22,712 nt of DNA, taken from positions 1-22,712 of the IMG/VR virus record IMGVR_UViG_3300030060_000165. One strand, written 5' to 3'. Origin of the DNA: a virus. This document shows positions 1 to 14,392 of the stretch, piece after piece. The number at the start of each line of letters is the position of its first letter. Position 1 is the stretch's first letter. The translations under genes and the position numbers were made by a program. The notes under the pieces are model-generated. The model saw nothing but the letters and a program-made list of their open reading frames with translations, did no database searches and had not been told where the DNA came from.

Positions 1-14
1 TCTGGTGTTTGCAT
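1..14 (-). CDS. Start of next tail/fibre gene (cut by window edge)
   Basis: Only the first four codons (Met-Gln-Thr-Pro) are present. The ATG overlaps the TAA stop of the preceding paralogue as TAATG. It is preceded by GGAG inside that gene's conserved Gly-Asp-Leu-Ala codons, the same junction used by the neighbouring fibre genes. It is probably another tail/fibre protein, but nothing about its product can be read. Confidence 0.45.
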
Positions 15-397
15 TATGCTAGGTCTCCTAACACTGCGTAGTTTCTACCGTCTGTATCTGATGCTGCTGAAGTAGAGTGTGTCTTTAAAACCATACTAGA
101 TGTTGCCCGAAGATATGTTCCACTAAGCTCTTGAATACATGCAATGAAACTGTTTTCTTTTGGGGTGCCAATATTTGAAAAATTTGCATTACTCATATTG
201 TTAGTGAAGTTTGCCCTAACTACACCAGCAGCTTCATCTGTAAGACTAGCTACATTAAACGACCCCGTAATACTAGGAGTTCCATCACCCTCAATAAAGG
301 CCCACGCCTTCGCACTACCCTCAACAACGAACTTTGTGTCTACAGAGCCGGAGGTGCTGTGTTCTAGGGTATCTGCTTTGATTTTTCCTAGTGCCAT
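14..397 (-). CDS. Small tail/fibre-type protein, paralogue 3 of tandem family
   Basis: A 127-aa Ser/Thr/Gly/Asn-rich protein with no signal peptide or membrane segment, typical of beta-structured phage fibre pieces. It shares an N-terminal KADT motif, a central patch (AKAW, then a Gly-Thr stretch, SFN, SLTD, FTNNMS) and a C-terminal GDLA with the two upstream genes, so the three are paralogues. The start overlaps the previous stop as TAATG, with GGAG ten bases upstream. It is likely part of the tail appendage or receptor-binding apparatus, by position and composition only. No enzymatic motif is visible. Confidence 0.7.
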   Translation of the reverse strand: MALGKIKADTLEHSTSGSVDTKFVVEGSAKAWAFIEGDGTPSITGSFNVASLTDEAAGVVRANFTNNMSNANFSNIGTPKENSFIACIQELSGTYLRATSSMVLKTHSTSAASDTDGRNYAVLGDLA

Positions 398-798
398 TAC
401 GCTAAGTCTCCATGCCCTAAAGAACTTACATCGTCAACATCAATCGCCGCACCAGTGTCTGTCCTAGCACAATAGGTGTATATACTTGATGCTGTGTTTG
501 AAGCGTGAGAGACAGTATCTATACTTGTTCTATATCCACTTTGGCCACCTAAAGCATTTCTTGCGTAATCGTTGCTAGACATACTGTTGGTCAAATTAGT
601 TTCGTAAGCTCCTGTTCCATTATCATCAACAGAACTTGTATTGAACGAATCATTTATGGTTGTTCCATTAGTCTGGTTACACCAAACCTTCCCCAACCCT
701 TGCTGAAGATTAGTGGTCGTGCTATTACCTTCACCTGTGACTACAATAGACCCAGCCGTGCCTACGCCAGTGAGTTTGTCTGTTTTTACCTCACTCAT
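397..798 (-). CDS. Small tail/fibre-type protein, paralogue 2 of tandem family
   Basis: A 133-aa polar, Ser/Thr/Asn/Gly-rich protein. Alignment by eye with its neighbours shows a shared N-terminus (KTDKLT), a central patch (GKVW, SFNTSSVDD, NLTNSMS) and the C-terminal HGDLA. The start codon overlaps the upstream stop by four bases (ATGA) and has a well-spaced GGAG seven bases upstream, inside the GDLA codons of the upstream gene. The role is probably a tail appendage or host-recognition part. Sequence outside the shared patches has diverged strongly, as is usual for surface-exposed phage parts. Confidence 0.7.
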   Translation of the reverse strand: MSEVKTDKLTGVGTAGSIVVTGEGNSTTTNLQQGLGKVWCNQTNGTTINDSFNTSSVDDNGTGAYETNLTNSMSSNDYARNALGGQSGYRTSIDTVSHASNTASSIYTYCARTDTGAAIDVDDVSSLGHGDLA

Positions 799-1175
799 GC
801 TAAGTCTCCGTGTTGAACAAACTGTAAAAATTCTGGGTCTTCAATAGCTAAAGTATCTGCACGAACACTCCACGTTATTACCTGACTTGCACTTGCAGCC
901 CCCGGAAGACTTATGTATCTATTATAAGAAGTGGTATCATTACCTTGATTATTACAACCTGCTGTAATACTATTTACATCACTGAAAGAGCTAGTAAAAG
1001 CATGAGTATATTTTCCTGTAGCGTTATCTGTGACACTGCTAATATTAGAACTCGCTCTAATTGTTGCAGTTCCTGAACCATCTAAATTACAAGATGCTTT
1101 CGCAGCCTGTTGACTGGTAAGCGTAACCGCACCACCGCTCGTGCTTTGTATGGTATCTGCTTTTAATGTACTCAT
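795..1175 (-). CDS. Small tail/fibre-type protein, paralogue 1 of tandem family
   Basis: A 126-aa protein beginning MSTLKADT, with the family's central patch (AKAS, then SSNISSVTD and a GKYTHAFTSSFS stretch) and C-terminal HGDLA. It is the first of three paralogues in transcription order. It overlaps the upstream 150-aa gene by four bases (ATGA), indicating coupled translation. No catalytic motif, membrane segment or coiled coil is visible. Location at the end of the tail module and composition suggest a fibre or fibre-associated protein; the target is unknown. Confidence 0.7.
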   Translation of the reverse strand: MSTLKADTIQSTSGGAVTLTSQQAAKASCNLDGSGTATIRASSNISSVTDNATGKYTHAFTSSFSDVNSITAGCNNQGNDTTSYNRYISLPGAASASQVITWSVRADTLAIEDPEFLQFVQHGDLA

Positions 1176-4265: not shown

Positions 4266-4935
4266 TGTCATGCCTTCCAAAAATTACAGGTTCATGTTCA
4301 ATAGGCTCTGGCGATTTAAATTCTGATTGTCTAACAATCATTAAATTGCCATCTTGCACTGTTTGCACAAGCGGATCATCTAATCTATGATAACCATATA
4401 ATTTTTCATTATCTGGTACATTTGTGTCTAACAAGCTAGATCTATGCGCTATCTCCAACTTAATCCCTTTAGTTGCGGCTATACCGCACCAAAACTCCAC
4501 ACAAGCTCTACCAGACTCTGCCATACTTACATTTTTGTATGTGTAATCTATGCCATATAAACAAAGACAAGTAACTTTACTCCAAATTGCATAAGCAACA
4601 GCATAAGCTACAGTATTGTTAAAATAACAATAACCTAATTCTTTAGTTACTTTTTCTAAGGGATACAGTTTTAACTGATCCACTCTGTCATCTAACTGAC
4701 AAGTGTATATAGGGTTTTTATTTTTTTTTAAAAACTCACGAGCAACACCTGTTTGTGTTCCTGCGTTTTCTGTATCTAAAAACCTAGATACAGGATCCAT
4801 CATAAATGTTTTATCAACGTGTATAACAGCGCCGATACAATTTATGCCCCATACCTCATCAAATTCTTGAGAGGCAATACGCGCAGACATGTAGTCAGCG
4901 TAGCTGCCTCCAAGACCAACTATGGCTATTTTCAT
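4258..4935 (-). CDS. Rossmann-like protein, possibly MptE/DUF115- or glycosyltransferase-like
   Basis: A 225-aa protein. The N-terminus is a nucleotide-binding-type beta-Gly-rich loop (IAIVGLGGS, residues 3-11) followed by a FDEVWGIN strand (25-32) and an Asp at 47 in MMDP. Residues 124-134 give a second strand-loop, CLYGIDYTYK. Then comes ESGRACVEFWCG (140-151) and an HRSSLLDTNVP loop with KLYGYHRLDDP (164-188). The order resembles MptE/DUF115 and related proteins whose G-x-S loop and D motif bind a nucleotide or sugar nucleotide; this is a likeness by eye only. It lies within the tail module between a connector and a tail protein. Confidence 0.55.
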   Translation of the reverse strand: MKIAIVGLGGSYADYMSARIASQEFDEVWGINCIGAVIHVDKTFMMDPVSRFLDTENAGTQTGVAREFLKKNKNPIYTCQLDDRVDQLKLYPLEKVTKELGYCYFNNTVAYAVAYAIWSKVTCLCLYGIDYTYKNVSMAESGRACVEFWCGIAATKGIKLEIAHRSSLLDTNVPDNEKLYGYHRLDDPLVQTVQDGNLMIVRQSEFKSPEPIEHEPVIFGRHDNV

Positions 4936-5783
4936 GTTTTGTTTGCCCTTACTAACCCTTCACGATATGCGTCTGAATTTTCAACACCACTGCCATAATT
5001 TCTAAGTCTGTTAAGAGACTCAGTGTATCTAGCAATATAGAGTTGAAGAATATCTGTTTCGCCCTTCATAAAAGTATACGCCTCAACTAAAGAACCATAC
5101 AATAATGTATTTGGGGCGTTTTCACTTAACCAGGTCAAAGTTGAGTCTGCGCTAGTGGAAACCACTGTTCCTGTTGCACCGCTTGTAGCTCCAGTTACAG
5201 TCTCACCAACTGTTAAATCATTACTTGGTATAACAATAATCATTGTAGTGCCACTTGGCACAGAATTTATCGTCGTGCTTGTGCCACTTGTGCCGCCTGT
5301 GATTGTCTCTCCAGCAACAAATGTGCCGCTTACACTACTTACAGTTAAAGTAAATGCGCTGTCTGTTAAGCTAGTAGGTCTATAATAATAATGAAGCTCG
5401 GCTGAAAAAGCCGCGTTTGGTGTCGGCGCTAAAATAAAATTATTAACATCATAAAGAGCATAATATTTAGGCACACCAGTAGCGCCTGTGGGATTAAATT
5501 CTTGCAAGAAGTTTACATCTTTCAACAATACAAATTCTTTAGTGCTAGAATTTGTAACACTTAAACTAAAAGAAGCTAAATAATCATCTGGCACAGCAAG
5601 AAATTGATTACTAGAGGTTGTTGTACCAGTTACATTTTTACGAAAAAAATCTAAGTCCACTTCTTTTAAAATACGCTCTTCTGCGTTTTTTATGAAAAAA
5701 CTTAGATTATTCTTAAAGGTGGATTCAGTGTTTTCTGTCCAGTCTTGAATAGCTGTTTTTAATGTTGAATATGTAAAACTCAT
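4932..5783 (-). CDS. Head-tail/tail adaptor protein with inserted beta-repeat domain
   Basis: A 283-aa protein. The N-terminal half has motifs I associate with a conserved phage tail adaptor (SFTYSTLKTAIQDWTEN; AEERILKEVDLDFFRKN; PKYYALYD; FILAPTP; ELHYYYRP). The C-terminal part (TWLSENAPNTLLYGSLVEAYTFMKGE, about 216-240, then a SDAYREG end) continues the same family. Between them, about residues 144-214, sit two copies of a GETxTGxTSGxxxT beta repeat that interrupts the family pattern. The gene overlaps the upstream connector by four bases (ATGA). It probably links the connector ring to tail parts. Confidence 0.75.
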   Translation of the reverse strand: MSFTYSTLKTAIQDWTENTESTFKNNLSFFIKNAEERILKEVDLDFFRKNVTGTTTSSNQFLAVPDDYLASFSLSVTNSSTKEFVLLKDVNFLQEFNPTGATGVPKYYALYDVNNFILAPTPNAAFSAELHYYYRPTSLTDSAFTLTVSSVSGTFVAGETITGGTSGTSTTINSVPSGTTMIIVIPSNDLTVGETVTGATSGATGTVVSTSADSTLTWLSENAPNTLLYGSLVEAYTFMKGETDILQLYIARYTESLNRLRNYGSGVENSDAYREGLVRANKT

Positions 5784-6517
5784 GGTGTGTTCGCCTGTCC
5801 ACCCATACCGCTATGGTTTGTGCAATAGTAATACAGTGTTGGTGCGCCAACGGCAACCGTGATTTGAGTGTAAGCACCAGAGCTACCTGGTGTGCCGTTA
5901 GTGGTTACACCTGTGGTATACTCAGAACCTCCGCCATGGGTGCCATTTGATGTTGTAGAAAATCTAAGTGGATGACCAGAATTACTACTATCAGACTGGT
6001 CAAAGCGATAAGTGCTTCCCTCTGATAAGTTTACTGTGGCCTGTTGTACTCCATCAATATAATACTTATTACCATAACCTGTGCTAACTACCGTAACTGT
6101 GTAAGTCGCAGCTATGCTTACACCTGTGCCAGAAGCTGTAACGGTGCCAACAGAACCAGTTCCAGAAACCCCTGTAGTAGTTGCGTCAGTGGGCGTGATA
6201 ACATCCCCACCAAAAGTAATATCTCCTACTTGACCCCGCATTGCAGGTATTAACGGTTGAAACAACAACGTCACTATATCAAACGCAGGAAAAGAAGCTG
6301 TCACACTAATGATATTATTAGTATCTGGTCTTGGATCTCTTAACGCTTCAGCGTCTATGGCACGGCGTACAGGCTGTATTTGAGGATGTTTCTCCTCATA
6401 TTCATCTTTGCCTACAAGGAGTCCATTCCACTCTTTACGCATGTCACGCAGCCTATATCTGAAACCAGACCTGTCAGATATGCCATAAGCGTTTTTACCA
6501 ACAGCGTATTTGCCCAT
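5780..6517 (-). CDS. Connector-associated protein with C-terminal cupredoxin-like domain
   Basis: A 245-aa protein. I chose the ATG at 6517, which overlaps the upstream TGA as TGATG; a GTG one codon upstream is possible. Residues 1-60 (GKYAVGKNAYGISDRSG, EWNGLLVG, KHPQIQP) match a small connector-type phage family. A Gly/Thr/Ser-rich linker follows to about 145. The C-terminal domain has the ligand pattern of type-1 copper proteins: His182, then Cys232, His235 and Met238 in YYYCTNHSGMGG. The C-x2-H-x2-M spacing equals that of amicyanin. Copper binding is inferred and untested; the domain may be purely structural. Confidence 0.75.
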   Translation of the reverse strand: MGKYAVGKNAYGISDRSGFRYRLRDMRKEWNGLLVGKDEYEEKHPQIQPVRRAIDAEALRDPRPDTNNIISVTASFPAFDIVTLLFQPLIPAMRGQVGDITFGGDVITPTDATTTGVSGTGSVGTVTASGTGVSIAATYTVTVVSTGYGNKYYIDGVQQATVNLSEGSTYRFDQSDSSNSGHPLRFSTTSNGTHGGGSEYTTGVTTNGTPGSSGAYTQITVAVGAPTLYYYCTNHSGMGGQANTP

Positions 6518-7185
6518 CACGCTATCCTATAAAACTGAAGATTAGGACTCACACTAAATGAGGCTCTATCACGATCCTCTGCTTGAGCCTTATCAAACTC
6601 CTCATCATATATGGTCTTCAAAACCTGTATTCTATCTGGCGCTTTTTTAATTGACAGATAGTAAGCTAAACCAGCGGCTAAACAAGGATAGAAACGAAAT
6701 GGCACTTCAACAGTATTGGTGAAGGTGTCAGCATCATCAATCCTAGTTAAACAATCATAAACTAACGTATCTGTGCTATTTTCAGGTGTAGGCCATATCT
6801 TTATGGCTGGTGTTATCTGTCGATCAACGAAAAACTGAGATGGCCTTGATTGCGTAGTCTTTGAGTTTATTGATAGATAAGTGTCTCGACTTATACGACT
6901 CATTGATAAATCAGACCCACTACGTCTAACAACCATAGACAACACATCAATAACATCTGCATCCAAGTTGTAACTAGATGTGCCTTGAGTTAAGGCTTGA
7001 GTCCTTTGTGTTATTGTCCATTGATTAAGTCCACGATTAGCCCAATCAGCAAACAATAGATTTAAAGAGCGTTTTGCGCTCTTTAAATCATACCCAGTTT
7101 TAACTTCTAAACCACAACGCTCAAAAGCTTCTTCAATATAATCGCTTACGTCTAGTTCAAAGTCAGTTGATCCTGAGACAGCCAT
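6517..7185 (-). CDS. Head-tail connector, P22 gp4-like adaptor
   Basis: A 222-aa protein. The N-terminal helical part contains DVSDYIEEAFERCG, then AKRSLNLLFADWANRGLNQW (about residues 37-56). This pattern is characteristic of the P22 gp4-like tail accessory/DNA-stabilisation family that sits under the portal ring. A beta segment follows (SYNLDADVIDVLSM), then IKIWPTPE, and a C-terminal helix pair (VPFRFYPCLAAGLAYYLSIK; LKTIYDEEFDKAQAEDRDR). The length is close to the family norm. It lies directly before the other connectors. This is one of the main reasons to call the phage a podovirus. Confidence 0.8.
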   Translation of the reverse strand: MAVSGSTDFELDVSDYIEEAFERCGLEVKTGYDLKSAKRSLNLLFADWANRGLNQWTITQRTQALTQGTSSYNLDADVIDVLSMVVRRSGSDLSMSRISRDTYLSINSKTTQSRPSQFFVDRQITPAIKIWPTPENSTDTLVYDCLTRIDDADTFTNTVEVPFRFYPCLAAGLAYYLSIKKAPDRIQVLKTIYDEEFDKAQAEDRDRASFSVSPNLQFYRIA

Positions 7186-7538
7186 TATTTCTTAGCCTTA
7201 CCGCCACGCATCATCTTTTTGACTTTGCCACCGCGCATCATGCCCATAGCTTTACGAGGAGATACACCCATTTTTTTAGATGCTTGTTTAGCTGCGCCAC
7301 CACCCATCATCTTTTTAGGCATAGCCATACCACCACCACGCATACGCTTGGCTTTCTTAGCGGCTCCGCCGCCCATCATTTTTTTAGGAATAGTTGATCC
7401 GCCGCCACGCATGCGTTTTGGAGCTTTAGTAGCGCCACCACCCATCATTTTTTTAGGTGCGGTTTTTTTAGTTAAACCAAAACCCATTTTTTCTGCTAAT
7501 TCTTTAAGAGCAGCCATTTGTTTTTTTGTGTCAGCCAT
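7185..7538 (-). CDS. Basic Met/Gly/Lys repeat protein
   Basis: A 117-aa, strongly basic, low-complexity protein. A short amphipathic start (MAALKELAEKMGFG) is followed by tandem 23-residue units of the form PKKMMGGGA...KRMRGGG (residues 28-50 and 51-73, then a partial third) and a tail of RGGKVKKMMRGGKAKK. No fold is expected from this composition. The Gly-Gly/Met-Arg motifs echo those in several other small proteins here. It overlaps the upstream gene by eight bases. A role in binding nucleic acid or membrane is possible from charge alone. The function is unknown. Confidence 0.65.
   Translation of the reverse strand: MADTKKQMAALKELAEKMGFGLTKKTAPKKMMGGGATKAPKRMRGGGSTIPKKMMGGGAAKKAKRMRGGGMAMPKKMMGGGAAKQASKKMGVSPRKAMGMMRGGKVKKMMRGGKAKK
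7320..7457 (-). repeat. Two tandem 69-bp coding repeats
   Basis: Units 7389-7457 and 7320-7388 encode residues 28-50 and 51-73 of the basic repeat protein, with a partial third unit below 7319. Both units start with codons for PKKMMGGGA and contain a downstream RMRGGG. The unit length is a multiple of three, so copy changes keep the reading frame. Confidence 0.75.
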
Positions 7539-13915: not shown

Positions 13916-14392
13916 CTATACATAGGAAATATCGGACGGGTCAAGTATTGTGGCTATCACATTATCGTCATTTATAAGCCGAACTTCTAAACCGTCCACT
14001 TTAAACCTATTTCCAGCATATCTGCCCATTAATACCCATGATTTCTCTTCACACCAAGGTCCAGTCGGAAACTTATTAGCATCTGCGTAAGCATCTGAAC
14101 CCATTTTAACGACATACGCTGCAACAGTTGCATGACTTTCACGTTCACGAACTGCGTCTGGAATAATTATGCCGCCAGCGGTCTTCTGTTTCATGTAATA
14201 TGGAATGACAAGAAGCCTATACCCAACAGGATTGGGTAATCTATCAATAGCAGAAACATCCATCTTAGACGGATCCTCTGTATTTTTCTTATTGTCTTCT
14301 ACGGAATCAAAGCCTTTTGATATTGGCTCTGGTACTTTAGATTTTGCCCTTTGTGCCGCCAACCTGTCAGGGACGAATAGTTTTTTAGCCAT
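13916..14392 (-). CDS. GroES-like co-chaperonin (Cpn10 family)
   Basis: A 158-aa protein. Residues 1-49 form a charged extension absent from bacterial GroES. From about 50 onward it follows the Cpn10 fold: RLPNPVGYRLLVIPY (strand), then a mobile-loop-type segment at 66-82 with TAGGIIIPDA, ATVAAYVVKMG, and a C-terminal VRLINDDNVIATI. The GGIII element is where GroES contacts GroEL. The protein likely caps host GroEL to fold the capsid protein, as T4 gp31 does. It lies directly upstream of scaffold and overlaps the previous gene by eight bases. Confidence 0.8.
   Translation of the reverse strand: MAKKLFVPDRLAAQRAKSKVPEPISKGFDSVEDNKKNTEDPSKMDVSAIDRLPNPVGYRLLVIPYYMKQKTAGGIIIPDAVRERESHATVAAYVVKMGSDAYADANKFPTGPWCEEKSWVLMGRYAGNRFKVDGLEVRLINDDNVIATILDPSDISYV

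Follow-up and report, generated by a model that had tools for sequence, protein, structure and literature searches.

Does a small protein encoded amid the neck genes of a marine phage carry a genuine copper site and, if so, what would such a site do on a virus particle? The question is raised by a gene in the window (the whole stretch of DNA that was analysed, 22,712 bases), which is the first part of a 32,255-base viral record. The genes of the window include those of a portal, a capsid and two proteins that resemble the SU10 adaptor. The portals nearest to its own are those of phage DSL-LC04, of pelagiphages HTVC023P and HTVC027P, and of phage 023Pt_psg01. The initial annotation placed at 5780–6517 a protein with a Gly/Thr linker and an amicyanin-like ligand set. 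The open reading frame is indeed found there, read from an ATG on the minus strand from 6517 down to 5780; it encodes 245 residues, with a Gly/Thr-rich linker ahead of the C-terminal domain. The features needed for what follows are these:

5780..6517, minus strand: 245-residue protein with a ribbon N-terminus, a Gly/Thr-rich linker and a C-terminal cupredoxin domain (open reading frame, translation)
4932..5783, minus strand: downstream neighbour, SU10-adaptor-like (Pfam PF24175, E 4.7e-22)
6517..7185, minus strand: upstream neighbour, SU10-adaptor-like (Pfam PF24175, E 6.3e-12)
6319..6517, minus strand: ribbon-type domain, residues 1–66 (phrog_28581)
5783..6106, minus strand: predicted cupredoxin domain, residues 138–245 (AlphaFold2 model, PDB fold matches, profile matches)
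5972..5974, minus strand: codon of His182, first predicted copper ligand (by position; invariant in profile A3)
5822..5824, minus strand: codon of Cys232, predicted copper ligand (by position; invariant in profile A3)
5813..5815, minus strand: codon of His235, predicted copper ligand (by position; invariant in profile A3)
5804..5806, minus strand: codon of Met238, predicted axial copper ligand (by position; invariant in profile A3)

The four residues of the putative site lie where they had been announced: 50 residues separate His182 from Cys232, and the motif CTNHSGM has the C-x2-H-x2-M spacing, which is that of amicyanin. In a cupredoxin fold, His-Cys-His-Met is the type-1 copper set. The match of all four residues is far beyond chance.

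The fold was predicted with AlphaFold2. The model of the full-length protein is poor (pLDDT 68.5) because of its linker, which is disordered, and although its top PDB matches are still cupredoxins, their fold scores are diluted; the domain was therefore modelled alone. With an alignment of 58 diverse relatives, the resulting model is confident (pLDDT 97.4, pTM 0.89). A Foldseek search of the PDB, the check proposed in the initial annotation, returns rusticyanin, three-domain copper nitrite reductase and multicopper oxidases at ranks 1 to 15, all of them cupredoxins, and amicyanin at rank 17. The scores are modest (best E-value 2.3e-3, TM about 0.5–0.6), and the domain is therefore a distant member of the cupredoxin superfamily. 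Rusticyanin and three-domain copper nitrite reductase, the best fold matches, share only 13–16% identity with the phage domain, are larger proteins, and have Cys-His-Met loops of other lengths. According to DSSP, His182 directly precedes a strand (184–187), Cys232 closes another (228–232), and His235 and Met238 are in the loop ahead of the last strand; in the model, these positions are compatible with the cupredoxin topology. Of the viral models, the one that ranks first belongs to a cyanophage S-TIM5 structural protein, and P-SSM2 tail-fibre proteins are among the lower-ranked named matches; an S-TIM5 homologue carries the annotation of virion structural protein. For the two phage carriers searched, no solved phage structure with the domain was found. 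The cupredoxin model is also matched by three BFVD entries (A0A481Z6J5, A0A481Z7Q7 and A0A481YVH3, 20–26% identity), each a "beta-sandwich protein" of Pithovirus- or Marseillevirus-like giant viruses.

The relation to known copper proteins is harder to detect in sequence. PDB searches with the single window sequence or with a profile of close relatives (A1) gave no matches. The one profile that worked, A3, built from the 58 diverse domains, retrieves copper nitrite reductase, plastocyanin, pseudoazurin and amicyanin, with weak E-values, from 0.0075 upward. The window domain alone matches none of the Pfam and NCBIfam cupredoxin models: it does not reach the cut-off of Copper-bind (PF00127), which matches 13 of the 58 relatives at E <= 0.1 (best 5.1e-5), nor does it match the amicyanin model TIGR02657, to which four of the 58 are weakly matched. 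A Pfam match to Shr-like_HID was also below the cut-off and was set aside. In hhalign comparisons, whose scores are weak and for which the plastocyanin and amicyanin sequences were entered by hand, the first His and the Cys-His-Met end of both proteins fall on the phage ligand columns. The phage domain shares with the PF00127 proteins plastocyanin, amicyanin and pseudoazurin the predicted fold, the H...C-x2-H-x2-M order and the columns of the ligands. Unlike them, it lies under Pfam detection, has no export signal, is fused to virion-type proteins, and has conserved features of its own (GHP and YYYC.NHSGMGG).

Are the ligands kept because they matter? The full-length relatives of the protein number 80 on viral contigs, and these close relatives alone are not very informative, since most of the domain is conserved in them. 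Among 73 representatives with less than 70% identity, the ligands take the first four places in conservation out of 106 columns, and in A3 the only invariant columns are those of His182, Pro183, Cys232, His235 and Met238. It is important to note that some members of A3 were gathered with patterns that contain the ligand motif. For this reason the analysis was repeated on ligand-blind sets, collected by whole-domain tblastn (phage records, or with the ligand-poor copy of cyanophage PSS2 as the query) or with ligand-free stretches. In this collection, H-C-H-M is intact in 148 of 154 unique domains; the ligands rank within the dozen or so best-conserved columns rather than as the top four, and are carried by 34–37 of 38–39 representatives. 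The ligands, whose conservation had been proposed as a check, are not freely replaced.

The six exceptions read D-A-T-M (two), A-A-T-M, H-E-D-M, H-D-E-L, and one incomplete Y-A. Cys232 and His235 are lost together in all six and neither is ever lost singly, a count that does not amount to many independent events, the exceptions being few and partly interrelated. If the two residues belong to one metal site, their joint loss is to be expected. One close relative (L036) has D-C-H-L, which is also a double change. A further histidine, His194, was considered as an extra ligand; it is common in close relatives and was dropped, not being invariant in the diverse set. Two of the ligand-less domains (L488 and L092) have acidic residues at the Cys and His positions (E..D and D..E), and this may point to a change to another ion, such as calcium. 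In cyanophage PSS2 and its relatives (L089, L254–L257), the domain is a free-standing protein of about 112 residues, and three of the ligands (both His and the Cys) are missing from these copies. Given these few ligand-less homologues, the fold would be able to function without copper.

The N-terminus of the protein had been described as connector-type. This description is based on the gene neighbourhood: the gene is flanked by two SU10-adaptor homologues on the portal and capsid strand, a structural-gene setting. The domain itself is a decayed zinc-ribbon-like domain (phrog_28581). The positions that are cysteines in some relatives are Ser14, Ser17, Gly36 and Glu39 in the window protein. The pattern C-x2-C...C-x2-C is kept in 17 of 154 relatives, 112 read S, S, G, E, and there are few intermediates. 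The ribbon cysteines therefore seem, from the alignment, to have been lost together while the protein was retained; the N-terminal metal site appears to be lost and the C-terminal one kept. Next to the neck genes, at 7185–7538 on the minus strand, is a gene for a 117-residue protein made mostly of Lys/Met/Gly repeats (KKMMGGG, KRMRGGG).

The cupredoxin domain is a portable module, found in differing carrier genes in related phages. In the 32,255-base record it is present as a single copy. Among related phages it occupies three sites: the C-terminus of the ribbon protein, as in the window, the inside of the downstream SU10-type adaptor, and the N-terminus of the upstream adaptor. The ribbon protein has many complete relatives with no such domain at the end. 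Three contigs (L258, L138 and L157) also have a cupredoxin insert in the downstream adaptor gene; in a nearest-neighbour comparison, the insert of L138 lies nearer to a domain from a different type of protein (88%) than to the adjacent copy (66%). In phage 023Pt_psg01 the ribbon protein is devoid of the module, which is instead at the N-terminus of an apparent counterpart of the upstream adaptor (the open reading frame at 5983 of L577), an identity judged by eye from the sequence. HTVC023P has the ribbon gene and no module. Outside the neck, the module is found in tail fibres, baseplate-region proteins and structural proteins of cyanophages, pelagiphages and methylophages; isolates that have it include cyanophage S-TIM5 and pelagiphage HTVC028P. 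Marine bacterial contigs have it too, among others in SAR86 proteins with lipobox-like starts and in proteins with cadherin domains. The cellular relatives sit in secreted-looking proteins, some of them beside cadherin domains; some of the "genome" matches are plainly viral contigs inside metagenome bins. In the open-licence papers searched, we found no account of a cupredoxin domain as part of a phage structural protein. Both fold and site belong to known kinds; a cupredoxin module that is shared and swapped across marine phage structural proteins appears to be undescribed.

Taken together, fold, profiles and conservation lead us to conclude that the last 108 or so residues are a cupredoxin domain with a complete type-1 ligand set, which is probably carried as a portable module on the head–tail neck of a marine phage with a short-tail, SU10-type connector, and on the fibres and baseplates of other marine phages. 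On the model and the alignments, it is highly likely that the fold is that of a cupredoxin and that the metal site is real. The contrary reading, that the four residues coincide by chance in some Ig-like or carbohydrate-binding domain with no relation to cupredoxins, is very improbable: in Pfam the window domain finds its best, weak match in CBM_4_9, at an E-value of 0.02 that is below the cut-off, and Ig folds are present lower down in the Foldseek lists, but the fold matches, the profile matches and the ligand conservation independently indicate cupredoxins.

The nature of the metal is a different matter. Copper is the metal expected from the ligand set, and we consider it the probable occupant in virions. 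It may be that the ligands are real and hold another metal (Zn, Ag or Ni), or serve only to pin the domain together structurally, with no copper chemistry; joint conservation and joint loss speak for a shared site and not for the identity of its metal, and the neighbouring ribbon domain is evidence that zinc-type sites do occur in these proteins. This is nevertheless unlikely, since the closest relatives of known structure are copper proteins and the His-Cys-His-Met set in this fold is that of type-1 copper. If copper is present, the domain could also be an electron-transfer module which, at entry, exchanges electrons with surface or periplasmic proteins of the host. The ligand set is complete, and plastocyanin, amicyanin and rusticyanin, to which the domain is similar, are electron carriers. 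We regard this function as improbable, however, because fusion to many unrelated structural proteins better suits decoration and no redox partner is known.

What the copper-type module would do has to be judged from where it is found. The SU10 adaptor ring connects the portal to the nozzle, and the long tail fibres are attached to it (PMC9509320). As the module can be placed on each of three neighbouring neck genes and, elsewhere, on fibres, the simplest interpretation is an exposed decoration or contact domain, and the best reading of its location is that it is a type-1-copper-type module exposed on the neck or fibres of the virion. The retention of the ligand set suggests that metal binding matters, whether to keep the domain stable outside the cell or to make the contact itself. 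The small beta-sandwich modules known as phage Ig-like domains are exchanged between virion proteins; the present domain resembles them in this swapping, and differs from them in having a cupredoxin fold and a conserved set of metal ligands. By analogy, surface contact or decoration may be its main role, an assignment that we make tentatively and hold at somewhat below an even chance.

In the mechanism that we propose, the protein, which has no export signal, would be made metal-free in the host cytoplasm and would acquire copper when the cell lyses or afterwards. Once filled with metal, the domain would be rigid, stable and exposed on the particle, where it would serve contact with the host, as is thought for phage Ig-like domains; the copper site would be needed for binding or for stability in this contact. 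A metal in a phage tail with a proposed role in attachment has been described: T4 gp37 and the tail fibres of marine phages have iron-binding HxH motifs, for which a Trojan or Ferrojan Horse role in host attachment has been proposed (PMC11705849). There, HxH motifs hold iron in a fibre, whereas the present case is a single predicted copper-type site in a globular domain. In a broader and rather doubtful extension of the same idea, several groups of marine phages (cyanophages, pelagiphages, methylophages) would share a swappable particle module, copper from seawater or lysed hosts would aid attachment, and phages would join the pool of dissolved copper ligands.

Should the site contain copper, a large number of ocean phages may be metalloprotein particles, which would bear on how they attach to their hosts and on the chemistry of copper in the sea. 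The small size and wide occurrence of the domain make the claim directly testable, and a confirmed claim would also supply a name for unexplained regions within the PHROG families phrog_30742, 693, 27200 and 708.

Last, two other loci of the window deserve mention. The gene at 13916–14392 (minus strand) encodes what, judged by eye only, looks like a GroES co-chaperonin, and an annotated GroES is close to the capsid gene in the sister phages HTVC023P and 023Pt_psg01. At 14–1175 (minus strand), three neighbouring small genes (14–397, 397–798 and 795–1175) have products that all end in GDLA; they look like tandem paralogues.
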